From a virus, in IMG/VR virus record IMGVR_UViG_3300022911_000006, positions 1-47,085 of that record: DNA of 47,085 nucleotides; one strand, written 5' to 3'. Numbering within the stretch: position 1 is the stretch's first letter; each line of letters starts with the position of its first letter. This document shows, in pieces, positions 22,284 through 45,348 of the stretch. Made by a program: the position numbers and the translations under genes. Under the pieces are notes generated by a model. That model was not told the origin of the DNA. It did not search any database and was given only the letters and a program-made list of their open reading frames with translations.

Positions 22284-22297
22284 ATCTATCATTTTTG

Positions 22298-22370
22298 TGG
22301 AGATGATCAGGCTCGAACTGACTACCTCTGGCGTTTCACACCAGCGCTCTACCAAATGAGCTACATCTCC
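22298..22370 (-). tRNA. tRNA-Phe (GAA)
   Basis: 73 nt, all arms present. Acceptor GGAGATG/CATCTCC; D stem GCTC/GAGC; anticodon stem CTGGT/GCCAG with anticodon GAA at positions 34-36 (plus-strand 22335-22337); T-arm GTCAG-TTCGAGC-CTGAT; discriminator A. CCA is not encoded. The loop closes as G32/C38, slightly unusual. It supplies Phe UUC/UUU decoding during late synthesis and sits between the dCTP deaminase and a basic-protein gene. Confidence 0.9.
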
Positions 22371-30311: not shown

Positions 30312-30572
30312 TTACTCGTGTGCCCAGGTGATCGCTTTAACAGCATTCATCTGTGCATCCTCGGCATGGCTGATGGCCTTAGCGAAGTATCGCTTGGCAC
30401 CGCCACTCGTGGCAGCATCACGGGCTGCATTCATCTCATCGATGATCACTGCGAACTTACCCTTGATACTGTCTACTACAGGGTCTTTTGACGGGTTGAA
30501 ACTGACGCCTGCTGCCTTCTCACCAAAAGTGAGGGATTTCTGTTCTTGTGTCTGGTTAGTGTTGGGGTCCAT
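30312..30572 (-). CDS. Acb2-like small helical protein, candidate anti-CBASS sponge
   Basis: 86 residues. The layout FGEKAAGVSFNPSKDPVVDSIK (16-37), a helix, then a second helix ending AEDAQMNAVKAITW (70-83) fits a widespread phage family that I associate with the Acb2/Tad1 hairpin group. Acb2 proteins form hexamers of helical hairpins that sequester cyclic di- and trinucleotides made by CBASS and related signalling, protecting the phage. The family call is from memory of the motif pattern and needs a profile search. It lies in the accessory cluster with the UCA tRNA and is followed by a terminator. Confidence 0.6.
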   Translation of the reverse strand: MDPNTNQTQEQKSLTFGEKAAGVSFNPSKDPVVDSIKGKFAVIIDEMNAARDAATSGGAKRYFAKAISHAEDAQMNAVKAITWAHE

Positions 30573-30835: not shown

Positions 30836-30837
30836 AG

Positions 30838-30910
30838 AACGCTGGACGAGAATCGAACTCGCGACCAGTAGATTTGAAGTCTATCGCTCTACCAACTGAG
30901 CTACCAGCGT
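30838..30910 (-). tRNA. Opal suppressor-type tRNA, anticodon UCA
   Basis: 73 nt with all canonical arms. Acceptor ACGCTGG/CCAGCGT; D stem GCTC/GAGC with loop AGTTGGTA; anticodon arm ATAGA-CTTCAAA-TCTAC with TCA at 34-36 (plus-strand 30875-30877), U33, A37, A38; T-arm GCGAG-TTCGATT-CTCGT; discriminator U73; CCA not encoded. The short variable loop (5 nt) excludes tRNA-Sec. It should read UGA and perhaps UGG. The amino acid is not evident: A1-U72 recalls Trp, U73 recalls Gly or Cys. Pair 27-43 is mismatched (A-C). It lies next to a Pth2-like gene. Confidence 0.88.
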
Positions 30911-30916
30911 ATCCTG

Positions 30917-31219
30917 TTATGGATTCCATAACGGTATATCATCAAAAAGATCGCCATCGTGTAACACGGCACCGGCTACTACACGGTTCTTAAGATCCGG
31001 TTCCTTGAATATCTGCCATGAGTCTGTCCTGGATGCGGCCCACCGAATACGTCGAAACAGTTCTGCCTCATCCGGTACTGCAAGACACTTGAATGTTATA
31101 CGTGACCAATCTACCTTGGGCATAGCCATACCCATGACTGCTGCAATGTGAGCCATCTGTACTGCTTGTACAGCTACACTCACATCAGTCCTAACTAAGA
31201 GGTACAGTCTTTGGGCCAT
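30917..31219 (-). CDS. Pth2-like peptidyl-tRNA hydrolase family protein
   Basis: 100 residues. RLYLLVRTDVSVAVQAVQMAHIAAV (4-28) matches the Pth2 start (VxRxDLxMxxGKxAAQxxHA), and the remainder (ITFKCLAVPDEAELFRRI...KNRVVAGAVLHDGDLFDDIP) follows the Pth2 beta-alpha order. The GK of the canonical active-site loop is replaced, so activity is uncertain. Pth2 frees tRNA from stalled peptidyl-tRNA. The stop is 7 bp before the UCA tRNA 5' end, suggesting co-expression. It may recycle tRNAs during UGA readthrough or counter host tRNA-targeting; both are inference. Confidence 0.68.
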   Translation of the reverse strand: MAQRLYLLVRTDVSVAVQAVQMAHIAAVMGMAMPKVDWSRITFKCLAVPDEAELFRRIRWAASRTDSWQIFKEPDLKNRVVAGAVLHDGDLFDDIPLWNP

Positions 31220-31541
31220 ACTGTGCCATTAGTTTATCGATGTACTTCATGCTGATACCTTCCATGCTTACCTTGGGATTCTTCTTATAGCCACCGTACT
31301 GGGTGCGTGTCATTGCATAGGCTAAGTGAAGATGCCTGAGTTCATGACGGTTCAGGCGTTTACTGGTTTGCTTCATACCCACATTAGCTATCGAGCCATG
31401 TGGCCTATGGAGCTGCAGGTTCAGTTCCTTCTGGTCTGCTGCCAGTTTCTTGATCTGATTGCGGAAATTCTCTTTTGAGCTTTTGTATGCTTTCTGTGCT
31501 GCGAGCATCTCTGGCGAGAGCTGCGATGTTTGGTGTTCCAT
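31191..31541 (-). CDS. Basic His-rich hypothetical protein
   Basis: 116 residues from ATG 31541 (MEHQTSQL). It contains a Lys/Gln-rich coiled segment (AQKAYKSSKENFRNQIKKLAADQKELNLQ) and a His/Arg cluster (RLNRHELRHLHLAYAMTRTQYGGYKKNPK) that resembles nucleic-acid-binding phage proteins. It overlaps the Pth2-like start by 29 nt, and a different reading frame (31405-31641) overlaps its first 137 nt. Confidence 0.6.
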   Translation of the reverse strand: MEHQTSQLSPEMLAAQKAYKSSKENFRNQIKKLAADQKELNLQLHRPHGSIANVGMKQTSKRLNRHELRHLHLAYAMTRTQYGGYKKNPKVSMEGISMKYIDKLMAQYGPKTVPLS

Positions 31542-31641
31542 ATTCTGAGGGGAATTTAGGTATGTATAAATGTTGTTGCAAATTGTCCAGTGTATCAACT
31601 AGCTTCATTGCGGAGAACCCCTCGTTCTGTTGTGTACTCAT
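31405..31641 (-). CDS. Overlapping frame, possible short gene or frameshift leader
   Basis: 78 codons. The first 35 residues (MSTQQNEGFSAMKLVDTLDN...) read like a genuine small protein, but the rest overlaps the next gene in a different frame and ends in a low-complexity tail (DQETGSRPEGTEPAAP) typical of off-frame translation. Either the real product is short, or translation shifts by one base near 31541 into the following frame to make a fused protein. No classic slippery heptamer was found. Confidence 0.35.
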   Translation of the reverse strand: MSTQQNEGFSAMKLVDTLDNLQQHLYIPKFPSEYGTPNIAALARDARSTESIQKLKREFPQSDQETGSRPEGTEPAAP

Positions 31642-33734: not shown

Positions 33735-34067
33735 TTATAGCCGGACAGTCGTAATCAGGTGGGAAGTACCCCTACTATCGAAGATCACAGTATGCCTGAC
33801 GCTAGAGGGACTTTTGGTACCGGCACTCCGGTAAGTCTCTGCGAACGCCACACGTGGCACTGTAACCTTGTCAACAGGGTTCTTTCCCGACTGATCGCTA
33901 ATCACTTTGCCAAGGTCTTTGTCATAGTACGGTGTACTGTTATAGGGATTGGTCGTCTCCATCTTTTTCAGGATTCCGTCTACCCAGTCCTTCTTCTCTG
34001 CAGGTTTCTGTGCTGCTACACAGGTACTGATTACTGCCAGTACCGACAGGATAAAGAGCTTTCTCAT
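33735..34067 (-). CDS. Exported small protein with signal peptide
   Basis: 110 residues from ATG 34067. MRKLFILSVLAVISTCVAAQ is a textbook signal peptide with cleavage after AAQ or earlier at a Cys; a lipoprotein site is possible (VISTC). The mature part is polar and Lys/Asp/Thr-rich. It probably acts in the periplasm or outer envelope, for example in superinfection exclusion. The leader TTCATCACCCTTTAAAC precedes the start. The frame upstream of the ATG passes through a long-helix RNA region and is not coding. Confidence 0.7.
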   Translation of the reverse strand: MRKLFILSVLAVISTCVAAQKPAEKKDWVDGILKKMETTNPYNSTPYYDKDLGKVISDQSGKNPVDKVTVPRVAFAETYRSAGTKSPSSVRHTVIFDSRGTSHLITTVRL

Positions 34068-34097
34068 GTGTAATGAGTTTAAAGGGTGATGAAATAT

Positions 34098-34223
34098 GAC
34101 CAGTGGTTGGTTATAACTTCCAGACCACTGCGTGACGTATTGTAGACCACGTACCGTCGGGCTTTTAGCACCCAAGGCATCGTAGCAACATGTAGCGTGT
34201 GTATCCTTGGACAACCACTGGTC
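34098..34223 (-). ncRNA. Structured RNA candidate closed by a perfect 12 bp helix
   Basis: GACCAGTGGTTG (34098-34109) pairs perfectly with CAACCACTGGTC (34212-34223), enclosing 102 nt. Inside, CCAAGG/CCTTGG is visible on the plus strand. A 17-nt block (minus: GTGGTCTACAATACGTC) resembles one in the RNA candidate at 35539-35659 (GTGCTACGAAACGTC). It lies 31-156 nt upstream of the exported-protein start, ahead of its leader element. The transcribed strand is inferred from the flanking genes. Confidence 0.6.
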
Positions 34224-34229
34224 TTATGT

Positions 34230-34634
34230 TTAATCGATCGGTTCTACTGGTTTGGGTACGTATTCTTCATCCACGTATTTATCCACATGGATGATAGTAC
34301 CACAGAATGGACAGTGCTTTATCACATTACCACCCAGCACTACTCTCGGTGCGCCGAATGGTTTCTTGTAATCAGCAATGACTGATATCTTGGAAGGATG
34401 GTCATTGTAGTCCATCTCTTCACTGGATTGGTTGATATGCATCTCATCACAACAGATGGATACCTTGCGGTTATTCATCTTGTAGATCTGCAGGTCAAGC
34501 TGTGCTCTCTTCTCAGCAGCCTCTTCCTTGGATATCTTCTTGTTACGGAGCATTACCCAGTTGACGGCTGGGTTACCGTACTCACGCAAGTGCTTATGGT
34601 ACTGGCGTGAATAGAAGTGTTCAGCTTTTGTCAA
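34230..34634 (-). CDS. Zinc-binding hypothetical protein
   Basis: 134 residues. CC at 61-62 and HCPFCGTIIH at 107-116 provide a likely zinc site of the type found in small phage proteins. The N-terminal third is basic and helical (RNKKISKEEAAEKRAQLDLQIYKM). It overlaps the MazG-like gene upstream by 14 nt. Function unknown; nucleic-acid binding is plausible. Confidence 0.6.
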   Translation of the reverse strand: MTKAEHFYSRQYHKHLREYGNPAVNWVMLRNKKISKEEAAEKRAQLDLQIYKMNNRKVSICCDEMHINQSSEEMDYNDHPSKISVIADYKKPFGAPRVVLGGNVIKHCPFCGTIIHVDKYVDEEYVPKPVEPID

Positions 34635-34857
34635 CTGGTACCTCCTGTCTGTTTATCTGTCGTTTAAGACGCTCCCATTGATAGAACAGGTCATCCATCT
34701 CTGATACAAGCTGTTGCCATCTTGTAACATCATGGTCAGGTGCCATAGTATCCCAGTCTTCATTGAAGCGTATCTTCTTAGCGATGACCTTGATCACTTC
34801 GCTACATTCCTCTGCTAATGCGGCAGCAGGGTCACCGATGTTTCTGAATTCTCCCAT
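34621..34857 (-). CDS. MazG-like nucleotide pyrophosphohydrolase
   Basis: 78 residues. E16-E17-x-x-E20 followed by ExxD at 53-56 is the metal-binding signature of MazG-type all-alpha NTP pyrophosphatases. The single helical unit fits the short phage version. It could lower (p)ppGpp or remove non-canonical dNTPs. The leader TTCACCCTTAAAC lies about 12 nt upstream of the ATG. Confidence 0.75.
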   Translation of the reverse strand: MGEFRNIGDPAAALAEECSEVIKVIAKKIRFNEDWDTMAPDHDVTRWQQLVSEMDDLFYQWERLKRQINRQEVPVDKS

Positions 34858-34882
34858 GTTACTGGTTTAAGGGTGAAGAAAT

Positions 34883-35509
34883 CTATTTGAGAAAGCCCAT
34901 CTTACGCTTAAGCGTGTTGAGGAGCATGAGTGCAAAACTAGCAAATGGTGCTTTACCGAGTGCACCATTGTACATGGCTACCGTCTTGTAGTTCAGTACA
35001 CCGAGTGTATCATGCTTGGGATACTGAGTAGTATCACAATGCTCTGGTGGACTCACTACAAAGTAGTTCCTGCATGCAAATGGGCGTACAGGATAGATCT
35101 TGCACAGTCCCTGGTCATCAAGGAATGTGCACTTCCTGTGCGGTGATAGGAAATACTCACCTACATCCAGTACCGACTGGTGCTTGAGGGTATTCTCGCT
35201 CACTTTAATGTGCTTCTCTTTCATGTAGTCCACTACCACATCTACTTCGAGCTGGGTAGCATCTACACGTATTGAGCAGCAGAATGAGCAGCCTTTCTTA
35301 CAGCTAATAGGTGGATCAGTGTACTCTGCTTGCTGCTTGAGATTACTCGCATCTATCTCCCGGTACAGGGCAAGCAGCGCCTGTTTCTTATCGGGTATAC
35401 CAGCGGTTATACGTGCAGACTGATCGGATATGTCCTGTAGCTGCCGTATCTGTTGGGGTGTGAGATCATCGAATGGGTTCACGTAATCATGTGAGGCTAT
35501 ACGTTCCAT
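34883..35509 (-). CDS. YkgJ-family Cys-cluster protein
   Basis: 208 residues from ATG 35509 (MERIASHDYV). CKKGCSFCC (70-78), CTFLDDQGLCKIYPVRPFACRNYF (C127, C136, C146) match the YkgJ/UPF0153 pattern of a zinc or Fe-S binding cluster. Family members are uncharacterised; some occur near DNA or flagellar genes. A leader element (TTCATCACTCTCTTAAATT) lies upstream. The frame further 5' runs through a structured RNA and is not coding. Confidence 0.85.
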   Translation of the reverse strand: MERIASHDYVNPFDDLTPQQIRQLQDISDQSARITAGIPDKKQALLALYREIDASNLKQQAEYTDPPISCKKGCSFCCSIRVDATQLEVDVVVDYMKEKHIKVSENTLKHQSVLDVGEYFLSPHRKCTFLDDQGLCKIYPVRPFACRNYFVVSPPEHCDTTQYPKHDTLGVLNYKTVAMYNGALGKAPFASFALMLLNTLKRKMGFLK

Positions 35510-35538
35510 AGCTACCAATTTAAGAGAGTGATGAATAA

Positions 35539-35659
35539 GCAGTGCCGGGAACCCGGAATGGGTTGAAGACAACAGGTTCAGACGTTTCGTAGCACATCTT
35601 TCCATCTTAGGAGATGAATAGGATTTAGACCATCAAAGCTATCGCAACCCAGGCACTGC
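35539..35659 (-). ncRNA. Structured RNA candidate with two-step closing helix
   Basis: GCAGTGCC (35539-35546) pairs with GGCACTGC (35652-35659), and immediately inside GGGTTG (35560-35565) pairs with CAACCC (35645-35650). The 13 nt left between the two left arms form a CCGG-GAAC-CCGG mini-hairpin. CATCT/AGATG lies inside. Length (121 nt) and placement before a gene leader match the candidate at 34098-34223, with a shared internal block. Confidence 0.6.
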
Positions 35660-35678
35660 TATAAGTCTAAGGTATGGA

Positions 35679-35936
35679 TTATTCATTATCGTGATAGAAT
35701 AGCTTGCCAAGTTCAGTAGTGGTATCTACCCATACCTGCCCAACGAGTGAGCTATCAGGCCTGCGCACCTCTACCCAGAATGAATCCTGTAGTGTGAGGA
35801 TGTAGTGATAGGGCTGAAGCACCATACGGTGCTCCAACCTATCCACACGCTGTTCAACACCACGATTGTTATCCATTACAAAGTATGCTACCATGAATAT
35901 GGCAGCACCCATTAATACGGATAGTACGTTCTTCAT
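35679..35936 (-). CDS. Small membrane-anchored protein with coiled stalk
   Basis: 85 residues. Residues 3-21 are a single hydrophobic helix (NVLSVLMGAAIFMVAYFVM), followed by a short heptad-like segment (GVEQRVDRLEHRMVL) and a beta-rich domain (FWVEVRRPDSSLVGQVWVDT). Probably inner-membrane with the domain outside. It overlaps the two-helix membrane gene upstream by 4 nt, so the two may form a complex. Confidence 0.65.
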   Translation of the reverse strand: MKNVLSVLMGAAIFMVAYFVMDNNRGVEQRVDRLEHRMVLQPYHYILTLQDSFWVEVRRPDSSLVGQVWVDTTTELGKLFYHDNE

Positions 35937-36157
35937 GCTACAACTGGCTGCTCCTTATCAGAGAATAGCGCACAGTTGAGGATGATGCCCAGTACCAGAC
36001 CGAAGATAGCAGAAGCTACTTTGGAGTCAGGACTAAGACCACGGAATGTGCCCCTGTAGAACAGGTGACCACAATGAAATACGAATAACATAACCAGGAT
36101 GCTGGCTATGAGCAGACCGAAGCCTGTAACGACGTTTAACATGAGTTTAGAGTTCAT
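35933..36157 (-). CDS. Two-helix membrane protein
   Basis: 74 residues with hydrophobic segments at about 7-29 (LNVVTGFGLLIASILVMLFVFHC) and 46-65 (KVASAIFGLVLGIILNCALF). A holin-like topology, but its place in the early block suggests an exclusion or membrane-remodelling role instead. Coupled by an ATGA overlap to the next membrane protein. Confidence 0.62.
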   Translation of the reverse strand: MNSKLMLNVVTGFGLLIASILVMLFVFHCGHLFYRGTFRGLSPDSKVASAIFGLVLGIILNCALFSDKEQPVVA

Positions 36158-36220
36158 GATACTAGACCCCGATATACAGCGGGACGACTGTTTTATGTTT
36201 GTATGAGTGTTCTCAAAGAA

Positions 36221-36253
36221 GATAGGAGCTGGCGCAACGCACAGGCTCCTATC
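36221..36253 (-). terminator. 9 bp hairpin, possible terminator
   Basis: GATAGGAGC pairs perfectly with GCTCCTATC around a 15 nt loop that contains a further GCG-type pairing. On the minus strand it is followed by TTCTTTG, a modest U-rich tail. It lies 118 bp downstream of the 76-residue gene and 64 bp before the two-helix membrane gene. Confidence 0.5.
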
Positions 36254-36371
36254 ACCAGACGGCTAAGTGGTCGTTGACTCCGCTGGACATCACTGCTACT
36301 GCCCACTACGACAGTACTGAGTTGATTGATACCCGCTGGTTCTGGTTAGTGTCCATTGCCAGCCGACAAGG

Positions 36372-36602
36372 CTACCATCCGCTGTTACTCACAGTGATAA
36401 TTTCACAGCGGTACTCTGCCTTGAATTGTAAAGAGTTTACGAGAGCAAGGTATATCCGGTTGATTCCGCATTTACCAGCCGTCCAACGTGTGATGGTCGG
36501 GCAGCCTACCTTAAGCTCTCGTGTATCCCCTCTGCACTCAGCCCTGTAACTGTTCTTGCTTTGAACATGAAAACGGATCGGATAGTTCTCCATGCCGTAC
36601 AT
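36372..36602 (-). CDS. Possible small Cys/Arg-rich protein
   Basis: 76 residues (or 73 from ATG 36593). The sequence (IRFHVQSKNSYRAECRGDTRELKV...FKAEYRCEIITVSNSGW) has natural alternation of strands and turns and three cysteines, unlike typical off-frame translations. It sits in an otherwise gene-free 490 bp gap, separated from neighbours by over 45 bp on one side and 210 bp on the other. No family recognised. Confidence 0.45.
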   Translation of the reverse strand: MYGMENYPIRFHVQSKNSYRAECRGDTRELKVGCPTITRWTAGKCGINRIYLALVNSLQFKAEYRCEIITVSNSGW

Positions 36603-36650
36603 ACAGGACTGCTCACCCTTGGGAAGTGAGAATGGTGCATTAAATCATCG

Positions 36651-36890
36651 TCACTTGGACGATGCATGATGAATTATGCGTATACGACCACGTTTGTAAC
36701 CAGACTTATCACTATCTGTATACCATTTCCAGTTGCCATCTATAGTGATTGCAAGCTGACCAATGGAGCGTTGATAGTCTACGCTCTCCTTAGTGGTTAC
36801 TACTGAGTTATCCGTGGTGACACCAGCTATACGTATAGCAATGTCTTTAGCATACTTCTTGGCAAGCGCAATGGCCTCTGTTCTGTTCAT
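36651..36890 (-). CDS. Small hypothetical protein
   Basis: 79 residues: a helical start (MNRTEAIALAKKYAKDIAIRI), then beta-rich with aromatic residues (QLAITIDGNWKWYTDSDKSGYKRGRIRIIHH). Unknown. Its ATG overlaps the TGA of the gene upstream, so the two are co-translated. Confidence 0.58.
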   Translation of the reverse strand: MNRTEAIALAKKYAKDIAIRIAGVTTDNSVVTTKESVDYQRSIGQLAITIDGNWKWYTDSDKSGYKRGRIRIIHHASSK

Positions 36891-37252
36891 GCCTCTTCTG
36901 GTTTCTCACCAGCCTGGTATTGTATGATGACATTCTTCTCAATGCATCTCATGATGTCTGAGAGGCACAGGAAGCCATCAGCCACAGATAGTGTGTCTAT
37001 GATGGTAAGGCGAACAACAGCATGGATGTGTGAGTGGATATGAGGCTTGAGGACATACGGTGTTCCATATTGCAACACCCGTTGCAGATCCCCAGCTTGC
37101 ACACGACTATTGCCTGTGAAGTGGTAGTACGTGGTCTGCACATCATGACCCTCGTCATTCTCTGTGATAGTGATCAGTTGGAACTGCTTATCCATCTCTA
37201 AGATGGTTTGTACCAGCCAGTTCAGCCTTATCGGTACTGTAGTCTTATTCAT
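36887..37252 (-). CDS. Hypothetical protein
   Basis: 121 residues, beta-rich with many His/Thr (KPHIHSHIHAVVRLTIID near 69-86). The HIHSHIH cluster could bind metal. A single Cys pair lies near the C-terminus. The leader TTCACCTTTAAAC precedes the ATG by about 12 nt. The first gene after the RepL-side non-coding gap. Confidence 0.58.
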   Translation of the reverse strand: MNKTTVPIRLNWLVQTILEMDKQFQLITITENDEGHDVQTTYYHFTGNSRVQAGDLQRVLQYGTPYVLKPHIHSHIHAVVRLTIIDTLSVADGFLCLSDIMRCIEKNVIIQYQAGEKPEEA

Positions 37253-37281
37253 GTAGCCATGAGTTTAAAGGTGAATAATGT

Positions 37282-37334
37282 GGTGGACACTGGGAGCCAG
37301 TACTGCCGACTTGGTTCCCAACTCCCGCTCCACC
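37282..37334. ncRNA. Compact hairpin RNA candidate
   Basis: GGTGGA/TCCACC, GGGAG/CTCCC and TTGG/CCAA stack around a TTC (plus) or GAA (minus) triloop with a 14 nt one-sided bulge. The 53 nt element lies 30 nt upstream of the gene starting at 37252, before its leader, like the other RNA candidates. Confidence 0.45.
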
Positions 37335-37619
37335 GTGTTCCTGCTATTGCAACGCACTATGCTTAAACACCTATTTATACTCGCATAGTCGAGTGTGAGA
37401 TTTACCCACGAATGTACCTAATCTGTGAAAATCTATCTGATGCAGCCTATCACGATGTGTGAAGGCGTAGCCCAAAGCCCGTAGTACTGTGGGATGAGTG
37501 CATAGTGAGAGTGAGATGACTAACCTGATATTTCGTACAGCTCAATGAGACAATGAGTTAAGAGCCTATAATGAGCATGTTAGTAGCGAGTGAGGGAACT
37601 GGTGCTCCGTGCATGCGAG
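37335..37619. repeat. Gap with seven RTGAG repeats, possible iterons
   Basis: No gene. Seven ATGAG/GTGAG copies fall in 101 bp: 37494, 37505, 37511, 37545, 37553, 37571 and 37590. Chance would give well under one. Directly adjoining the 3' end of the RepL-like gene, they resemble initiator-binding repeats of plasmid origins. A small ACTCG/CGAGT hairpin lies near 37380-37396. Confidence 0.4.
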
Positions 37620-38075
37620 TCATTCCTGCGGCACAAATGGCTGCAATCTGCCTACCATAAGCACAGTCACGTTGACCCAATAGTGTTTACCCTGTTGCTT
37701 GACCAGTATACGCTGCGATAGCAATTCGAGCATTGCTTTGGAATAGGTGCGTGGGTTGAGACCTACCTTCTTGGCTGACAACTGAATGCTCTCAGCCTCG
37801 TACTCCATGTTGACAGCGATGTGTATCAGTATCTTACATGCGTATGGAGTGAGATCATCGAGTTCAGCATTCTTGTACAGCTTGGTGAAACCCTTGGGAA
37901 GGTATTGTTTCTCGAACACCATCGTTATCTTCTCAGTCATGAGCCGACCTTGCATCTCCTCGGTACGGGTAACGGTCTTAGCCGTAGCCATTAGTCGTTC
38001 CCAATCAGCCTTAAAGGGATTATCTGGGCTCAGGACAAATCCATCCTTGCGTGTGAGTGCTGTTATCTTAGTCAT
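37620..38075 (-). CDS. RepL-like replication initiator
   Basis: 151 residues. YLPKGFTKLYKNAELDDLTPYACKILIHIAVNMEYEAESIQLSAKKVGLNPRTYSKAMLELLSQRILVKQQGKHYWVN (58-135) follows the winged-helix order of RepL/plasmid replication initiation proteins, a hallmark noted in crAss-like phages. It probably melts or marks the origin. An inverted repeat ATGCAAT-GT-ATTGCAT touches its start codon, suggesting autoregulation, and RTGAG repeats lie just beyond its stop. Confidence 0.72.
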   Translation of the reverse strand: MTKITALTRKDGFVLSPDNPFKADWERLMATAKTVTRTEEMQGRLMTEKITMVFEKQYLPKGFTKLYKNAELDDLTPYACKILIHIAVNMEYEAESIQLSAKKVGLNPRTYSKAMLELLSQRILVKQQGKHYWVNVTVLMVGRLQPFVPQE

Positions 38076-38076
38076 G

Positions 38077-38092
38077 ATGCAATGTATTGCAT
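38077..38092. promoter_or_regulatory. Inverted repeat at the RepL start, candidate operator
   Basis: ATGCAAT (38077-38083), GT, ATTGCAT (38086-38092): 7 bp arms, two bases from the ATG (complement of 38073-38075). As DNA it could bind a dimeric repressor; as RNA it would hide the start region. Its position suggests control of initiator synthesis. Confidence 0.5.
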
Positions 38093-38443
38093 ATCTACCA
38101 CATTCCAGTACCGAATGGAGAGAGAATCTTGTACATATACAACGATTTTCGTCTGAAACCCGCTCTGGGCCTCACTCACCTTCTTAAGAAGAAGAGATCA
38201 GCGCTATCTACCCACCATTCTGGGCACTTGGCACGCAAGACTACCACTTAGCTACCCTCGCAGCGGGGCGCACTGGAGAGTGATGCAATCCAGATGAGTG
38301 GTGCCAACCAGAGCAAGGGCATCCGAAGGATGCAATCTATTGGCGAAGCCAATCCAGAAGCGTCAATCTGTGAACAGTGCTGATGAGAGAAGCACGATAT
38401 CCCGAGCGCAGCGAGGACGGCATGGAACATGCCGATGCTCCAA
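38093..38443. other. Non-coding gap with GAA-triloop hairpins
   Basis: No supported gene. Three perfect 6 bp hairpins each close a GAA triloop: GCATCC/GGATGC (38319-38333), ATTGGC/GCCAAT (38339-38353) and GGCATG/CATGCC (38419-38433). CTGG/CCAG and CCTC/GGGG pairings lie nearby. The tandem arrangement suggests a structured RNA or protein-bound DNA between the RepL gene and the terminator of the Ala-tailed protein. Confidence 0.5.
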
Positions 38444-38478
38444 CGAAAAGAAAGAGTGTCCCACAATGTAGGACACTC
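38444..38478 (-). terminator. Intrinsic terminator
   Basis: GAGTGTCC/GGACACTC, 8 bp, 9 nt loop. On the minus strand it is followed by TTTCTTTTCG. It lies 13 bp after the stop of the gene ending at 38491, isolating that gene as a single-gene transcript. Confidence 0.8.
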
Positions 38479-38490
38479 TCATAGCAAGGG

Positions 38491-39141
38491 CTATTTTCCA
38501 GCAGTAGCAGCAGCTTTTGCAGCAGCAGCAGCTTTCTTTTCAGCAGCAGTCAACGGTTTAGTTGATGCAGCAGCAGCAGCCGCTTCTTCTTCAGCGAGTA
38601 TTTCCGCATCAATATCATCCGAATCGAATGATGTTGTTCCGTATACTTTAGGCTCAATGATGGAAATAGTGCTTGCATCGATTGTCAACAGAGAACCATT
38701 CTCTGTAGTGACTTTCTCAACAGTAGCAGAAATTTCAACACCTTTAGCAAGCCTGTCAGCAACAGATGAAGGAAGCAGAATGCCGAAGCTCATTTGAGTA
38801 GCATTCAGGAAAGAACGATACAGTTCGCTGGCTTTCTGCGTATCACCAGCTTTTTCAGCAAGGATAGCATCTTTCAGGAACTGACGATTGCGCTCATTGG
38901 TAAGAGCAGAAGTCCAGTACGCTTTGAGATTGAAAATCTTCTTCTGCAATACTGTGCCTTCGTAACCAGCGATAGTGCTGACAACAAGCTCACCAGCTTT
39001 GTTCTTAACATCTTGCACATTACCATTTCCATCGATGGTGAATTTTACTTTGTGACCAACAGCATCTGTTGGGATGGCAATTCTTTTCTTCATGATGGAA
39101 TTCACAGAACTCCTTGTCATGGGACGTTGTTCGTTGTTCAT
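38491..39141 (-). CDS. Probably abundant Ala-tailed protein, ssDNA-binding candidate
   Basis: 216 residues. The body is mixed beta/alpha, with a strand-rich C-terminal part (VEISATVEKVTTENGSLLTIDAST, about 138-161) that could be an OB fold. An acidic stretch (DSDDIDAEILAEEE) follows, then a low-complexity Ala/Lys tail encoded by GCA-heavy runs. Acidic-then-flexible tails recall phage SSBs, but the body has no decisive match. It is monocistronic with its own terminator and is the first early gene at the divergent region, so strong early expression is likely. Confidence 0.6.
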   Translation of the reverse strand: MNNEQRPMTRSSVNSIMKKRIAIPTDAVGHKVKFTIDGNGNVQDVKNKAGELVVSTIAGYEGTVLQKKIFNLKAYWTSALTNERNRQFLKDAILAEKAGDTQKASELYRSFLNATQMSFGILLPSSVADRLAKGVEISATVEKVTTENGSLLTIDASTISIIEPKVYGTTSFDSDDIDAEILAEEEAAAAAASTKPLTAAEKKAAAAAKAAATAGK

Positions 39142-39612
39142 TTTGAAACGAGTTTGAGTTTTGAGGAAAATTTGTTGAGATTGTTGCAGTCGAAATCCAC
39201 TACGACCAGTCAGGTACGGGGTATTTCGATTGCAAAAGTTAGGGTGGGACTATTTACAGAAGTGGTCACACACACGCGTAATTTCGACGGGTTTCACTAT
39301 AGCCTTCCGTGTGTAAGCCGGAGTACTTCTGTACCGGTAAGAGGGCGGGGCTCTTTGATCAGGTACCTGTCGAACTGGTCGACACGACTCTCGCACCTGT
39401 CGGGAATGTGATTGAAATTCGACATATCTTTGGCACGGGTGAGTAGCCGAGCAGGATACTGCGTATGGGTGGACTGGTGTATTCTCCCTGCTCTCTGCAC
39501 CAGGAGAGATGCCAAGCTCACGGGCACACTCACAATCGCAGCTCACCCATCTTTCTCCTTCCGGTACTGGAGTTATCGTATGAGTTCCCTATCTTCGGAG
39601 AAATTATCAACT
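39142..39612. promoter_or_regulatory. Divergent control region between early and late blocks
   Basis: 471 bp without a supported gene. Contains TATCTTTG (39425-39432, plus), a perfect hairpin TGTCGA-ACTGG-TCGACA (39368-39384), CTCTC/GAGAG near 39487-39506, one CCGGTACTGG (39561-39570), and TATCTTCG at 39590. The left side is AT-rich (39142-39185) and likely holds the early promoter for the Ala-tailed protein. It is the natural place for the early/late switch. Confidence 0.55.
39590..39597 (+). promoter_or_regulatory. Variant -7 box TATCTTCG before the first late gene
   Basis: TATCTTCG lies 16 bp before the ATG at 39613. It fits TAnnTTCG, seen also at 9881-9888 and 30828-30835. No TTTG occurs at the -33 distance; a phage-coded factor could be needed. 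Confidence 0.45.
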
Positions 39613-39828
39613 ATGAGCGACACTACATTCATCGACCGTATCAAGCAGGAGAAAACTGATCTTGATGACAAGCTTACCAAGCTGAATGCCTTCCTGAAAT
39701 CTGACAAGGCTATCCCAGTGGTTGGCAAGGCAAAGTCAATGCTACTGCAGCAAAGGTCTATCATGCAATCCTATAGTGATATCCTGAGAGACCGTCTCGA
39801 GGATCTGGAGAAACACCAACCGGCTTAA
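39613..39828 (+). CDS. crAss001_48-related small helical protein
   Basis: 71 residues, two amphipathic helices. IDRIKQEKTDLDDKLTKLNAFLKSDKAIPVVGKAKSMLLQQRSIMQSYSDILRDRLEDL follows the layout of the crAss001_48-related family (a charged helix, a short turn, and a second helix with the LLxxQxxxMxxYxxILxxR pattern). Function unknown. First gene of the late block, preceded by a TATCTTCG box. Supports the crAss-like assignment. Confidence 0.72.
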   Translation: MSDTTFIDRIKQEKTDLDDKLTKLNAFLKSDKAIPVVGKAKSMLLQQRSIMQSYSDILRDRLEDLEKHQPA

Positions 39829-39838
39829 AACTATTACC

Positions 39839-40096
39839 ATGAGTGACGTAACAGATTTCCTTGCAGCTATCGTAACGCAGAGAGCAGTGCTCAGTAACAG
39901 GATGAGCTTTATCAATGCGCTCATCGTAGGTCCACAGTGGGCAGGTCTTCCTGCTTACCAAAAGAGTATCTACATGCTTGAGCTCAATGATCTGCCTGTG
40001 CGGGATACACTGCTGGATAACCGCAGGGTGGAGATTGAGGGAGCCAACCTCTCTCAGCTCGGCAATCTCGGGCTGCCATCCCCGTGGCCGTTTTGA
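39839..40096 (+). CDS. Small helical protein, possible divergent relative of the preceding gene
   Basis: 85 residues. LPAYQKSIYMLELNDLPVRDTLLDNRRVEI loosely echoes the second helix of the preceding protein (polar helix ending with L-x-x-R), so a duplication is possible but not provable by eye. Proline-rich end. Its TGA stop overlaps the TTG or GTG start region of the spanin-like gene. Confidence 0.55.
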   Translation: MSDVTDFLAAIVTQRAVLSNRMSFINALIVGPQWAGLPAYQKSIYMLELNDLPVRDTLLDNRRVEIEGANLSQLGNLGLPSPWPF

Positions 40097-40470
40097 CCAG
40101 GCAAATCATACTATTCATCTTGCTGCTTCTGGTAGCGTGCCTCGTGCATGGCCAGAAGCAGAATCTCTTTGATTCACTGGTACAAACCAAGATGGAACTG
40201 ATAATGCTCAAGAAGGATACGACCAGTACCGGCAAGGAGATACGGGACTTGAGAAAGATGCTGGCGCTATTCACTACACAAGACTCACTACGTACTGAGA
40301 TGGTTGTGCTCCGTGCACGGCTCGCTATCGAGGAGATCAAGAACATGGATGCTACCACGCGCATCAATGAGCTGCGTACGGAGAACAGGAAGCTCAAGAA
40401 GAAACTCTTCATCGAGGCTGGTGCCACGGTGGTGGTTGCGCTGACCTCTGTATATTTGCTCCTGAAATGA
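40084..40470 (+). CDS. Spanin-like lipoprotein with C-terminal membrane anchor
   Basis: 128 residues from GTG 40084 or 125 from TTG 40093 (which overlaps the preceding TGA). The N-terminus IILFILLLLVAC is a lipoprotein signal with lipobox LVAC. The middle is charged and helical, with coiled-coil segments (TGKEIRDLRKML...TRINELRTENRKLKKK). The C-terminus (AGATVVVALTSVYLLL) is a transmembrane helix. Outer-membrane lipid plus inner-membrane anchor is the architecture of unimolecular spanins (T1 gp11), which fuse the two membranes at lysis. Confidence 0.65.
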   Translation: MAVLTRQIILFILLLLVACLVHGQKQNLFDSLVQTKMELIMLKKDTTSTGKEIRDLRKMLALFTTQDSLRTEMVVLRARLAIEEIKNMDATTRINELRTENRKLKKKLFIEAGATVVVALTSVYLLLK

Positions 40471-40476
40471 TTTCTC

Positions 40477-40674
40477 ATGGTAGTCGTAGTTCCCTTCAAT
40501 CCTCAATGGCTGAATGGGATTCCATTCATCGGGCATGCGGTGTGGTTCAAGCCTACTGATGACCGTCGTGTGGGTGTGCACGAGGATGAGAAGACCGACA
40601 AGTTCCCGTGGCTTGACCAGGTAGGATTCACACCACACTGGGGCTATGCGGTACTGGAGTTCTCAAATTCATAA
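40477..40674 (+). CDS. Small hypothetical protein
   Basis: 65 residues (MVVVVPFNPQWLNGIPF), aromatic and His-rich (HAVWFKPTDDRRVGVHEDEKTDKFPWLDQVGF). Resembles a compact beta-fold; no family known. It begins 6 bp after the spanin-like gene, so it is in the same transcript and may belong to the lysis or host-takeover group. Confidence 0.55.
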   Translation: MVVVVPFNPQWLNGIPFIGHAVWFKPTDDRRVGVHEDEKTDKFPWLDQVGFTPHWGYAVLEFSNS

Positions 40675-40706
40675 GTACTCCCTATATTTACATTCTAAAG
40701 CTGATT

Positions 40707-41498
40707 ATGACAACACCAACAGTCAATCATGACCAGCCGGTACACTTCGATCCCTACAAACATAGTTATACCTCTGGTGGCAAGCGCTACGTATCTGCGA
40801 CTCAGATAGTGGAGCAGTTCACCGAAGAGTTCGATGCTGAGGAGCGATCGGAATACATGGCTTGGCGATACGGGAACACACCAGAGTACTGGATACAGAA
40901 ATGGAAAGACGGCAACCAGGCGTCCCTGGTCCGTGGATCCAGGCTTCACAACGCAAAAGAGCAGGAGATGTACCGCAAGGGATTCATCCAGCTCAACTTC
41001 ACTCCATACCGGCTTCCCTTTCCGGTACTGCACCCCACCACGATATCTTACCACGCTCTCCCAGATGGAATATACCCAGAGATAATGCTATGGCGCCACG
41101 ACTTCAAGATAGCAGGGAAGTCAGACAAGGTGCTGATATACTCGGAGACCTCACCGGTAGCGATGGACTACGGTACCCGCTATGCAGATGTGGAAGACTA
41201 CAAGACCAACAAGGCGATACGGATGCATGGCTGGCAGAACAAGGATGGGTCGTTCCGTAAGATGCTCGCGCCGCTGCAACACCTTGACGACTGTGAGTTC
41301 AATGACTACGCACTGCAGCTAAGCATCTACCAGTTCATGCTAGAGTACTTTGGCTTCAAGCCGGGCAGGCGCAGGATCATACACTTCCCACACAAGATAG
41401 AAGGATTCGATAGAGCACCTAAGCCGGTACCCTACGAACTCCCGTACCTCAGAGATGAGGTGATAGCAATGCTTAACCACTTAAATACTGCAGCATGA
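40707..41498 (+). CDS. RecB/Cas4-type PD-(D/E)xK nuclease
   Basis: 263 residues. GSRLH (77-81, motif with conserved His), GKSD (137-140), EDYKTNK (163-169, D/E-x-K core) and YALQLSIYQF (207-216, QxxxY motif) are the ordered signatures of RecB-family nucleases. It probably processes DNA ends during recombination or packaging, or degrades host DNA. A TATATTTA box lies 17 bp before the ATG, and TTCTAAAG follows it. Its TGA overlaps the ATG of the next gene. Confidence 0.87.
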   Translation: MTTPTVNHDQPVHFDPYKHSYTSGGKRYVSATQIVEQFTEEFDAEERSEYMAWRYGNTPEYWIQKWKDGNQASLVRGSRLHNAKEQEMYRKGFIQLNFTPYRLPFPVLHPTTISYHALPDGIYPEIMLWRHDFKIAGKSDKVLIYSETSPVAMDYGTRYADVEDYKTNKAIRMHGWQNKDGSFRKMLAPLQHLDDCEFNDYALQLSIYQFMLEYFGFKPGRRRIIHFPHKIEGFDRAPKPVPYELPYLRDEVIAMLNHLNTAA

Positions 41499-42073
41499 GT
41501 AAATACTTTCTAGACACAGAATTCATCGAAGGCTTCCACAAGCCATTGTTCGGTAAGAAGAGACACCACATTGACCTGATATCTATCGGCCTGTACTGTG
41601 AGGATGGCAGGACATTCTACAAGCTTAGCTCCGAGTATGACTACAAGGATGCTAATGGTTGGGTGAGAGAGAATGTGATACTGCCGGCCTACAAGCACGC
41701 TGTGCATGGAGATGCGCGGAATCATTACACAGCACAGAACTTTCATAAGCTGCATGGCTTTCCGAATGGATACATCCGCGGACTACTGCTGGACTTCTTT
41801 GCTTTAGACAAAACACCGATAGAGATATACGGGTACTTCTCCGATTACGACTGGGTACTGTTCTGCTCCATCTTCGGTACTATGATAGAGTTGCCCAAGG
41901 GATATCCCATGTACTGCATCGACCTCAAGCAGATGATGATGGAGCGGGGACTTGATAGTACATGGAAGCGTAAAGCATGTCCTGATCCGGAAGACGAGCA
42001 CAATGCATTGGCGGATGCGAAGTGGAACTACAGGCTATACACTAAAATCATAGAGACTGATGCCGCCAAGTAA
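41495..42073 (+). CDS. DEDDh 3'-5' exoribonuclease-like protein
   Basis: 192 residues. FLDTEFIE (D7, E9), SDYDW (D117/D119) and HNALADAKW (H169, D174) form a DEDDh exonuclease site. Overall length and order match the Rv2179c/exoribonuclease family common in phages. It may degrade RNA or single-strand DNA. Its start overlaps the preceding TGA, and its end overlaps the IHF-like start by 14 nt. Confidence 0.85.
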   Translation: MSKYFLDTEFIEGFHKPLFGKKRHHIDLISIGLYCEDGRTFYKLSSEYDYKDANGWVRENVILPAYKHAVHGDARNHYTAQNFHKLHGFPNGYIRGLLLDFFALDKTPIEIYGYFSDYDWVLFCSIFGTMIELPKGYPMYCIDLKQMMMERGLDSTWKRKACPDPEDEHNALADAKWNYRLYTKIIETDAAK

Positions 42074-42416
42074 GAAGCATACCATTCCGGTACTGGAGGA
42101 CAAGCCGAGGAGCATCAAGCAGGTTCCTGTAGCCAATGAACGCCTGTACCAGGAAGTAGCGCTGCTCACCAAGCAGGAGAAGAAAGAGGTGCGTGACATG
42201 ATAGAGTTCGTGGGAAAGTTCGTGGCTAAAACCATCAAGCGAGGAGATATGGAAGGAGTGATGATACCGTACTTCGGCAAGTTCCGTCCCAAGGTCAAGC
42301 AGCTACGGGCTATGAAGATGGCACAGGCGTTACGTGCTAATGGGATGGCAGCAGTCTTCAAGGCTGTACGTGGAAAGATAGTGGTCATTGATTACGATAA
42401 ACTGAAAGAGAAATGA
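42060..42416 (+). CDS. IHF/HU-like DNA-binding protein
   Basis: 118 residues. The segment KTIKRGDMEGVMIPYFGKFRPKVKQLRAMKMA has the HU/IHF-type beta-strand and arm region (I-P-x-F-G-K-F), and residues 30-60 form the helical dimer core. IHF-like subunits next to the terminase are a known crAss-like feature. It probably bends phage DNA at the packaging site or origin. The ATG lies in the exonuclease gene and the TGA overlaps the next ATG. Confidence 0.72.
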   Translation: MPPSKKHTIPVLEDKPRSIKQVPVANERLYQEVALLTKQEKKEVRDMIEFVGKFVAKTIKRGDMEGVMIPYFGKFRPKVKQLRAMKMAQALRANGMAAVFKAVRGKIVVIDYDKLKEK

Positions 42417-43204
42417 GATTCTTTGAAGTTGACGACGAAAAGCAGGTGTCCCTGAACAAGGCCTGGATCCACATGATACCAGAGTTCAAGGCACTGCTCA
42501 CCCGTGACAAAGGCTCCAAAGGAGACTATCGCGGTGACAAGAAGCTGAAGGCGACAGCAGAATTCACCTACATCTACTTCTTCACTGACTTCTCCTCGCC
42601 CATCAGGGACTGGGAGGATGCGGAAAGAAAGAAAGAGGCACTGTACTATGCCGGTCTTACCGAGGATCAGATAGATAACGAGGTACTGGTCGCCAATGAG
42701 AAGTACTTTCAGTTACAACTAGCTGCATCCAGACCCTTGCGCACACTCAAAGCGCTCTACAAGGGTATGGATGCAATGGATACCTACTTTGAAGCGATCG
42801 ATTTCTCCAAAGTGGACAAGCAGGGCAAGATGCTGAACTCACCCACGGACTTTGTGAACAATGCTGCCAAGCTTAACAAGATGTATGACGAGGTAAGGAA
42901 CTTTGAGAAACGTGTTGAGGAGGATATGCGGGAAGCATCTGGCGGAATACGTGGTCCGCACTCGACTCTTGGTGACAATGAGGGTAGTAAGCAGGCATGG
43001 AGCGAGGATGAGATACACAAAGGCTCCCAGCACGTGTCTGAAGGAGTACCGACCAGTAGTACATCGTTCGCATCCCTGATAGATATCACCCGGGAGACCG
43101 CCCGCAAAGAGAAAGCCAGAGAAAAACTGCTCGTGGCGCTCGATAATCCGGATCTTAAGGCCATTTTCAACAAGGAAGAGCAGGATATGGAGGAGGACGA
43201 CTGA
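42413..43204 (+). CDS. Probable small terminase or portal-adjacent protein
   Basis: 263 residues. The N-terminal half is mixed. The C-terminal half is helical with acidic/basic patches (YDEVRNFEKRVEEDMREASGG...ETARKEKAREKLLVALDNPDLKAIFNKEEQ). The position directly before TerL, with a TGATG overlap, fits a small terminase subunit, but no helix-turn-helix is evident and the sequence is not recognised. Alternatively a conserved crAss-like packaging cofactor. Confidence 0.55.
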   Translation: MRFFEVDDEKQVSLNKAWIHMIPEFKALLTRDKGSKGDYRGDKKLKATAEFTYIYFFTDFSSPIRDWEDAERKKEALYYAGLTEDQIDNEVLVANEKYFQLQLAASRPLRTLKALYKGMDAMDTYFEAIDFSKVDKQGKMLNSPTDFVNNAAKLNKMYDEVRNFEKRVEEDMREASGGIRGPHSTLGDNEGSKQAWSEDEIHKGSQHVSEGVPTSSTSFASLIDITRETARKEKAREKLLVALDNPDLKAIFNKEEQDMEEDD

Positions 43205-45300
43205 TGAGTTTCCACCACCTTGTGAACACCGCTCAATTCTCTTACACATCAAGGGATTTCAAGAAGAATGGTGACAAATACACCAAAGCACCGAGAGGTT
43301 CGAGGGACTATGTGCAGTTCTGGGAGGAAGAAGACCGCAGATGCATGTTCGGCTACAAGGTTGGAGACGTGTGGATACCGGGACGGATGTATTTCTGGCT
43401 GAATTTCTTCCCCATCAACAGGGTACCGGAGGCTACTCGTCTCAGGATCCGTGAGCAGTACAAGAGAACTGGCCAACTGATCGATTTCGGCGCTGTAGAG
43501 AAGCAGGATGGGTTCCCCGGGTTCCATGAAGTGCACTACGAGTGGTGGAATTTCAAGCATATCGCATGGTACGGTGGTAATTTCATGGGTATCCAGTCCC
43601 CTGGTAACAGGCACATGTGTTGTCTCAAGACACGTGGTGCCGGCTGGTCATACATCGAAGCCTGTGACGCCGTCTACAACTACACATTCATCAAAGGTTC
43701 CAAGAGCTACTTCTTCGCTGGTACAGAGCCATACTTGCAGGGAGATGCCATCATGGATAAGGTGCAGGCGGGACTGGACTTCATCAATACCAGTTCCCCG
43801 TACTGGAAGCAGAACAGGCAGGTGAAGCGCAACATCATGCACCAGAGAGCTTCATACCTTGATGCTTCTGGTAAAGAGGTTGGTTCATTCTCTGAGATCA
43901 TTGCACAGATTGTGGATAAGCCATCTAAGACCAGAGGTAAGAGAGGTCGCAAGGTGAGCTTCGAAGAAGGTGGTTCCTTCCCGCACATGGAAGCAGCACT
44001 CGAGGTATCATTGGGTTCCCTGAGAGAGGGTACTATCTACGTAGGCCAGGCATCTGTCTTCGGTACTGGTGGTGAGCAGGGCCCGGGCATACAGGGCTTG
44101 GAGAACGTATTCAACTATCCGGAGGCGTGGGACATGCTGCAGTTTCCCAACGTGTGGGAGGACGGTATGCAACACGTACCGGTAGGATACTTTGTTCCTT
44201 GTTGGCGTGCCAACTCCTGGTTCATGGATGAGGATGGTAACGTGGAGATGGATGACGCCATCAAAGCCGATGACATCGAGCGGGAGAAGAAGAAGAAATC
44301 ACCGAAGCCCAAGGATCTGGACAGGAGAAAGGCCGAGTACCCACGCAATCCTGCTGAGGCGCTGCAGCGGATGACAGGTAATGGGTTCAACATTGCCGAG
44401 GTACAGGCGCAGATCAAGCGTTTGCTCCACAACCCAGCCTACTCGGGACTGATTCGCTACGGGACACTGGTCCGTTCCCCGGAAACCGGTGTTGTATTCG
44501 AGCCCAAGCCTAAGCACGTAGCTCGCCCGATAGAGGACTTCCCACACTCACAAGCTGAAGGTAGAGACCTGAAGGGCTGCGTATCGACCATACAGCGACC
44601 TTGGCGTGATCAGAATGGACATGTGCCCCCAGGGATGTACATCATCACCTTTGATGCCTACGCTAAAGAAGATGCAGAAGACCAGACATCACTATGGTCA
44701 TTCAAGGTGTGGAAGCTGGAGAACTTCTCGGACAACTCCTACGTCAATCTCCCGGTACTGTGGTACTCTGGCAGGCCTACACGGTACTATGACAATCACG
44801 ACCTGATGTTCATGGCAGCGGAGCTCTACAATGCGCAGATCCAGGGTGAGGTCGCCGGTGGTGGACAATCAGTGATCACTTACGCAAGAGAGAGACGTTT
44901 GCTCCACAAACTGCGCAACTCACCAGAATCAGCCTCGAGCAAGGAGAACCAGAGCAAGGGACACCAGAACGAGTACCTCATGGACATGCCGGCCGACAGG
45001 AAGAACACAGGTATCATCTATCTCGAGGACTGGCACATTGCACCACGTGCAGCCGATGAGAAGGGTAACCTGATACTGAACCTGCACCACATCTACGACA
45101 TCGCATTCCTGCGGGAGATGGAGAAGTTCGACCCGCTGCGTGGTAACTATGACCGTATCTCTGACGCCATCACATTCATGTACGAGATGAAGGATCATTA
45201 CATCTCCTACACCAAGCTACGCCGGGAGAACAAGGAGTTCTTTGAGCGTACCCTGTTCGCTGAAGCAGTGGTGGAAACTGGCTACGTGCCGCTATACTAA
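43204..45300 (+). CDS. Terminase large subunit (TerL)
   Basis: 698 residues. The ATPase lobe has an atypical Walker A (CLKTRGAGWS, about residues 139-148) and Walker B (VSFEEGG, about 251-257). The nuclease lobe has the RNase H-like Asp in IITFDAYAKED (near 482) and a late DRISDAITFMYE (near 650). It translocates and cuts DNA during packaging. The lysine of a normal P-loop is not in the standard place; crAss-like TerLs share this divergence. Followed by a promoter and the portal gene. Confidence 0.9.
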   Translation: MSFHHLVNTAQFSYTSRDFKKNGDKYTKAPRGSRDYVQFWEEEDRRCMFGYKVGDVWIPGRMYFWLNFFPINRVPEATRLRIREQYKRTGQLIDFGAVEKQDGFPGFHEVHYEWWNFKHIAWYGGNFMGIQSPGNRHMCCLKTRGAGWSYIEACDAVYNYTFIKGSKSYFFAGTEPYLQGDAIMDKVQAGLDFINTSSPYWKQNRQVKRNIMHQRASYLDASGKEVGSFSEIIAQIVDKPSKTRGKRGRKVSFEEGGSFPHMEAALEVSLGSLREGTIYVGQASVFGTGGEQGPGIQGLENVFNYPEAWDMLQFPNVWEDGMQHVPVGYFVPCWRANSWFMDEDGNVEMDDAIKADDIEREKKKKSPKPKDLDRRKAEYPRNPAEALQRMTGNGFNIAEVQAQIKRLLHNPAYSGLIRYGTLVRSPETGVVFEPKPKHVARPIEDFPHSQAEGRDLKGCVSTIQRPWRDQNGHVPPGMYIITFDAYAKEDAEDQTSLWSFKVWKLENFSDNSYVNLPVLWYSGRPTRYYDNHDLMFMAAELYNAQIQGEVAGGGQSVITYARERRLLHKLRNSPESASSKENQSKGHQNEYLMDMPADRKNTGIIYLEDWHIAPRAADEKGNLILNLHHIYDIAFLREMEKFDPLRGNYDRISDAITFMYEMKDHYISYTKLRRENKEFFERTLFAEAVVETGYVPLY

Positions 45301-45301
45301 G

Positions 45302-45332
45302 TTTGTTTATCTCCACAAGGTGGTTATATTTG
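45302..45332 (+). promoter_or_regulatory. Strong Bacteroidota-type promoter before portal
   Basis: TTTG (45302-45305), 19 bp, TATATTTG (45325-45332), then 16 bp to the portal ATG. This is the best consensus match in the window, so portal and downstream structural genes probably have their own late transcript separate from TerL. Confidence 0.8.
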
Positions 45333-45348
45333 TGTACAAACCGGGTAC

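Follow-up and report, generated by a model that had tools for sequence, protein, structure and literature searches.

The 47,085-nucleotide stretch of DNA analyzed here (IMG/VR virus record IMGVR_UViG_3300022911_000006, positions 1 to 47,085; hereafter, the window) represents a 47-kb piece of a crAss-like phage genome. Its large terminase subunit (TerL) matches 147 phage records, mostly crAss-like, with ~26-29% identity in the ones listed, and it also encodes a family A DNA polymerase, a thymidylate synthase and a ligase. Within a minus-strand cluster of replication and accessory genes, off the strand of the late genes, lies a tRNA with the stop-reading anticodon UCA, immediately preceded by a gene for a protein with the predicted fold of the peptidyl-tRNA hydrolase Pth2 (hereafter, the partner; Table 1). 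We show that the window holds the opal (UCA) form of a widespread phage cassette, in which a gene of this Pth2-like family stands next to a stop-reading tRNA on the same strand. The original prediction, made from the letters of the sequence, had recognized that a phage with TGA as a regular stop codon encodes a tRNA able to read UGA, and this part stands, but the adjacent Pth2-like gene had been missed.

ARAGORN calls the UCA tRNA at 30837-30910 of the minus strand, which the original prediction had left unspecified, and the Rfam tRNA model RF00005 matches 30838-30910 on that strand end to end (68.7 bits, E = 5e-13, gathering score 29), scoring it higher than the tRNA-Phe of the same phage. 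Only part of the ARAGORN tRNA calls used throughout this work were cross-checked with Rfam in this way. The sequence reads ACGCTGG TA GCTC AGTTGGTA GAGC G ATAGA CTTCAAA TCTAC TGGTC GCGAG TTCGATT CTCGT CCAGCGT T, with the anticodon loop CTTCAAA, the A1-U72 pair and U73 that had been proposed, a variable region of 5 nt and no encoded CCA. Every pair of the acceptor, D and T stems is intact, and the sole imperfect stem pair is 27-43 (A.C). Identity as tRNA-Sec is rejected, as had been anticipated: the molecule has a 7-bp acceptor stem, a 5-bp T stem, the short variable region and a length of 73 nt, and the label 'SeC' assigned by ARAGORN derives from the anticodon alone. The tRNA is thus genuine. 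A search of IMG/VR with a 36-nt stretch of it returned no further copy.

The partner protein of the window has no match to the Pfam family PTH2 (PF01981); its orthologue in a related phage genome (G004; 95,585 bases, TerL 61% identical to that of the window) matches with an E value of 7e-4 (20.3 bits, gathering score 23), and 17 of 22 family members match at E <= 0.01, the best at 1.3e-11. When searched against the PDB, a family profile including 20 relatives retrieves Pth2 structures (best E value, 1.5e-6). The AlphaFold model of the window protein has a mean pLDDT of 96.5, and its 14 best PDB matches in Foldseek are all of the Pth2 type, followed by a sharp drop. Taken together, the structural model and the profile searches identify the partner as a predicted Pth2-fold protein. 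The family has its own invariant residues, R10, Q21, H24, E73, P74 and N78. The lysine of the GKxxxAQ motif and the threonine of the DAGxTQ motif, the catalytic residues of Pth2, are replaced. Hydrolysis of peptidyl-tRNA by the partner is putative.

To collect relatives of the partner, IMG/VR was searched by protein motif only, yielding 55 loci of ~6 kb each, many of them from huge phages. ARAGORN found a stop-anticodon tRNA in 46 of the 55 (CUA in 43, UUA in 2 and UCA in 1, that of G004), co-directional with the partner gene in 45 of the 46. When near-duplicates (>80% identity) were collapsed, 38 of 45 partner loci kept the stop tRNA. Furthermore, 36 of 40 stop tRNAs lay within 1 kb of the partner gene versus 25 of 69 other tRNAs (Fisher p = 2e-8; near-duplicates removed, deep phylogeny uncorrected). 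The gap between the partner stop codon and the tRNA is 0-13 nt in eight CUA cassettes, a range that includes the distance found in the window. A survey of 165 tRNAs in four huge phages turned up 7 with stop anticodons; the partner gene is next to 5 of them, in several cases far from the tRNA arrays.

The association also emerged in the reverse direction. Of 80 loci chosen by an amber-tRNA pattern alone, ARAGORN called a stop tRNA in 71, and a partner open reading frame (ORF) is present in 31 of these 71, in all 31 cases on the strand of the tRNA. A second scan, for UCA tRNAs, added a further UCA cassette, L515, in which 82 nt separate the tRNA from the partner ORF. Conversely, no partner gene was found in 50 crAss-like control loci, in eighteen 20-kb regions of the same huge phages or in 153 kb of tRNA arrays comprising 176 tRNAs, and no stop tRNA was present among 60 tRNAs in 760 kb of relatives devoid of the partner gene. 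Likewise, the scanned regions of two further related genomes, G008 and G031, with 21 and 14 tRNAs by ARAGORN, contain neither a stop-reading tRNA nor the partner gene. Short-variable-arm UCA tRNAs were also observed at L014, L016, L018, L019, L525 and L527, where no Pth2-like gene was found in the available contig DNA; four of these loci carry several other tRNAs.

The window can further be compared with G004, in which a UCA tRNA follows the same two genes (6002-6388 and 5725-6042, corresponding to 31191-31598 and 30917-31219 of the window). The two tRNAs have identical CTTCAAA loops, and their bodies differ at most stem positions. To trace the body of the window tRNA, its D and T arms were searched, with the anticodon left free, in one genome per species of 84,980 bacterial and archaeal species; 90 among the 95 matches listed are tRNA-Gly (GCC 52, UCC 32, CCC 6). 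Among 296 evenly sampled genomes of Bacteroidota, the phylum that includes Pedobacter, 290 are matched by the tRNA, and all 29 of the best readable matches are tRNA-Gly(UCC), with 88% identity over nt 7-66 in the top group. The G004 tRNA gives only weak matches, in 6 of the 296, all to tRNA-Lys. Judging from these matches, the body of the window tRNA belongs to the Bacteroidota tRNA-Gly(UCC) lineage. It is identical to Pedobacter tRNA-Gly(UCC) at 58 of 73 positions, and the anticodon differs by a single change, C36 to A. Compared with the same Pedobacter tRNA, the pairs 1-72, 4-69, 5-68, 6-67 and 31-39 are altered on both sides yet still paired, which points to selection on a working tRNA. An A-U pair at 31-39 combined with A36-A37-A38 fits efficient readers of codons starting with U (extended anticodon, A37 modification). 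Because U73, C2-G71 and G3-C70 of the glycine identity set are kept while G1-C72 is lost, glycine would be the likeliest amino acid.

These observations bear on whether the tRNA is a relic or a neutral passenger, a reading that the original prediction had allowed. The 27-43 mismatch, the sporadic distribution of such tRNAs and the lack of a known target would be in line with it, but paired stem changes, a covariance score exceeding that of the tRNA-Phe of the phage, the presence of another UCA tRNA at the equivalent locus of G004 and the linkage of stop tRNAs to a conserved partner gene across diverse phages all disfavor it, and we consider it quite improbable.

The phage itself uses the standard code in the window and, as judged from two relatives, beyond it. 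As had been proposed, TGA is an ordinary stop: it ends 31 of the 74 called genes, and TerL and portal are open in code 11. The window proteins ending at TGA align with their relatives to or near the last residue, and in comparisons of the called genes no homologue runs past any window TGA. A contig with 95% identical DNA over 7 kb (L003) reaches 7.5 kb further into the late genes, where seven further late ORFs are all open in code 11; TerL and these seven end in TAA. In G004, the late module is wholly open in code 11, with ORFs of up to 3899 aa and TGA used as a stop. The in-frame TGA codons in late genes that would mark a phage using code 4 were not found in the window, L003 or G004, the genome of the window phage itself being incomplete. 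Recoding of late genes elsewhere in the phage genome had been offered as an explanation, and this is the customary role of suppressor tRNAs in many crAss-like phages (PMC7886860); moreover, the genome extends beyond the window. However, the uninterrupted late genes of L003 and G004 leave this suggestion unsupported, and it is, to our judgment, the least probable of the explanations.

Readthrough of the window TGA stops would have variable consequences. Extensions of about 5-14 residues had been predicted; the actual distance from TGA to the next stop of any kind is 0 to 67 codons in trusted genes (51 for the DNA polymerase), and extensions reach 169 codons if every TGA is read through. Several potential signs of readthrough, or of protection from it, were discarded. 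Back-up stops (TAA or TAG <=5 codons after the TGA stops, frequent in G004) occur likewise in relatives without a UCA tRNA. The raw six-frame signal of conserved in-frame TGA codons between the window and G004 contains many antisense artefacts, with no meaningful crossing in called genes. For an in-frame fusion across TGA at 38794-39828, a conserved minus-strand gene (38491-39141) covers the 5' part. Finally, the TAA-only stops of late genes were not used as a sign of protection, since TAA is preferred in highly expressed bacterial genes anyway (PMC8954436). One weak readthrough candidate is left, in which an ORF ending in TGA is followed by a second ORF in the same frame; beyond L003, no homologues of the fusion were found, and the two parts may perhaps be separate genes.

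The other phages carrying the cassette also look standard-coded, judging from sampled sequences. Across six cassette phages, eighteen 20-kb samples show hardly any gain in ORF length when TAG is read as sense, and in most of them TAG terminates ordinary ORFs; of 157 other ORFs within the cassette loci, 23 have TAG as their stop. In 4 of 96 loci, however, the partner gene itself is interrupted by one in-frame TAG, flanked on either side by homologous sequence (at 3109 in L305, 3160 in L336 and 3094 in L341, and in the partner gene near 4001 in L348). All four loci carry CUA tRNAs, and in L305, L341 and L348 the position of the TAG corresponds to the loop that follows the first helix. L348 derives from a 735-kb phage that lies outside those whose code was sampled. 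In-frame TGA or TAA codons were found in the partner genes of none of the 96 loci, and the partners of the window and G004 have no in-frame TGA.

It might be argued that a code change is incipient, with a newly acquired suppressor and TGA codons yet to accumulate in the phage genes. Yutin et al. suggest this for suppressors without recoding in crAss-like phages (PMC7886860), and the anticodon of the window tRNA is one position away from Gly(UCC). Yet a UCA tRNA occupies the same locus in G004, a relative that shows no recoding, and a stop tRNA has been retained next to the partner gene in many phages with the standard code, such that we find this scenario very unlikely.

We favor instead, with somewhat better than even confidence, an opal-form stop-codon-suppression cassette that combines host-directed partial readthrough with restraint by the Pth2-like partner, and is neither a relic nor a device for late-gene recoding. 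Under this model, the partner gene and the tRNA would be co-transcribed and the tRNA would be cut from the 3' end of the partner message. Once charged, most likely with glycine given its tRNA-Gly(UCC) body and retained U73, C2-G71 and G3-C70, it would compete with release factor 2 at UGA, causing partial readthrough. The phage's own late genes would not be the target; host messages are the likeliest ones, in the course of host takeover. Partial readthrough and action on host genes had both been among the explanations originally offered. The partner may bind the suppressor or its peptidyl-tRNA, limiting suppression or cleaning up after it, and in the four amber-type loci the single in-frame amber codons could make the dose of the partner report suppressor activity, providing feedback.

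Several observations weigh against this model. The 27-43 pair of the tRNA is broken, and A1-U72 and A36 stand in place of the known glycine identity elements G1-C72 and C36. In the alignment against 2zv3, the lysine and threonine that are catalytic in Pth2 are replaced in the partner family. The partner gene was not found at 40 of the 71 amber-pattern loci and beside several UCA tRNAs, some of the loci being short. Many TGA stops in the window are followed by long, unprotected extensions, which should make strong suppression costly. A different role for the same two components, rescue or repair against host defences that cut tRNAs or stall ribosomes, in which the stop-reading tRNA would allow ribosomes held at stops to continue and the Pth2-like protein would free peptidyl-tRNA, is in our estimate unlikely. 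Ribosome rescue has been proposed by Iyer et al. for the PTH2 of jumbo phages (PMC7824862), and a counter-defence gene of the Acb2/Tad1 type lies two genes from the tRNA; however, rescue alone leaves unexplained why the neighboring tRNA reads stop rather than sense codons and why some partners contain in-frame TAG, and the catalytic residues of Pth2 are replaced in the partner.

The Acb2/Tad1 hairpin domain, downstream of the tRNA, belongs to a counter-defence family (anti-CBASS/anti-Thoeris), which would fit a cluster devoted to host takeover or counter-defence; PADLOC matched none of the neighboring genes to a known defence system. Elsewhere, the minus-strand cluster includes a Pistol ribozyme in a non-coding gap, the same strand encodes a protein with a putative metal-chelating domain, and a second tRNA lies near the DNA polymerase gene (Table 1). 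At the place matching this tRNA-Phe, G004 has a tRNA with a loop lacking U33 that reads as ACA. A tRNA-Cys called by ARAGORN at 9386-9480 on the plus strand is probably false, being antisense inside a coding region and unsupported by Rfam. In other genomes, tRNAs with 8-base anticodon loops, read by ARAGORN as ggtt and gacg, were observed in L080 (G012 34000-36642) and L079 (G008 36500-47053) and are possibly of the frameshift type.

Table 1. Coordinates of the cassette and of other features in the window
Feature	Position	Strand	Basis
tRNA, anticodon UCA, predicted opal suppressor, tRNA-Gly(UCC)-type body, U73, no encoded CCA	30838..30910	-	ARAGORN, RF00005, body ancestry
Predicted Pth2-fold protein (partner), 100 aa; stop codon 6 nt from tRNA 5' end	30917..31219	-	Orthologue PF01981 match, family profile, AlphaFold/Foldseek, linkage to stop tRNAs
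Gene of unknown function, upstream of partner	31191..31598	-	40% identity to G004 6002-6388, same locus
Acb2/Tad1 hairpin-domain protein, two genes downstream of tRNA	30312..30572	-	PF24729, 27.7 bits (cut-off 27)
tRNA, anticodon GAA (Phe)	22297..22370	-	
CxxCxxCC putative metal-chelating domain protein	34883..35605	-	PF03692, 34.1 bits
Pistol ribozyme	37335..37394	-	Rfam, 47.6 bits (gathering 34.5)
Weak candidate readthrough site: 128-aa ORF, TGA stop at 40468-40470, then same-frame 65-aa ORF 6 nt on	40084..40674	+	Arrangement kept in L003

More broadly, the cassette could represent an undescribed type of system, a host-aimed, self-limiting termination suppressor consisting of a Pth2-fold protein whose active site is altered and a neighboring tRNA for any of the stop codons, with the phage code unchanged and in-frame stops in some partners serving as a sensor; we put this forward tentatively, as a possibility held with less than even confidence. 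Should it be correct, phages would carry stop-codon suppression as a cassette that serves infection in its own right, whatever their own genetic code, and a stop-reading tRNA would no longer be acceptable as a sign of recoding in genome annotation. So far, stop-reading tRNAs of non-recoding phages (XacN1, Atu_ph07, Zeta crAss-like) have been left unexplained or ascribed to incipient code change or host toxicity, and a conserved protein partner makes their role testable. The suppressor tRNA in a phage is of a kind already known; the cassette is put forward as the novel part. No published link between Pth2 or peptidyl-tRNA hydrolase genes and suppressor tRNAs was found in the open literature, and because subscription papers, including the main one on stop-codon recoding, fall outside that search, the linkage is probably, though not certainly, new.

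Among known systems, the suppressor tRNAs of crAss-like phages resemble that of the window as stop-reading tRNAs that in some cases occur without recoding (Yutin et al. 2021, PMC7886860; PMC12386605). Yutin et al. suggest for recoding in general that readthrough impairs host proteins, and a 2025 study of Zeta crAss-like phages suggests host toxicity for the suppressor tRNAs. As described in the passages concerned, recoding crAss-like phages translate late-gene TGA as tryptophan or TAG as glutamine, whereas the window shows no recoding and a tRNA body of the glycine type; a linked Pth2-like gene, present in the window, goes unmentioned in those passages. The jumbo phages XacN1 (two CUA tRNAs, PMC5852040) and Atu_ph07 (UCA, PMC6102473) likewise combine stop-reading tRNAs without a known target with a peptidyl-tRNA hydrolase, but, unlike in the window cassette, the two are listed apart with no linkage reported. 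A glycine-type UCA tRNA is also carried by code-25 Absconditicoccaceae and their phage RSA-ATP1 (PMC13059738), for both of which UGA is a sense codon, whereas for the window phage it is an ordinary stop. In XacN1, no tRNA was found within 4 kb of the relative of the partner gene. From Pth2 proper, the partner family differs in that the catalytic lysine and threonine are both replaced and other residues are invariant instead. The fold itself is predicted to be common to the partner, the archaeal/eukaryotic-type Pth2 (PF01981) and the jumbo-phage PTH2 of Iyer et al. (PMC7824862), with detectable similarity in 17 of the 22 family members.
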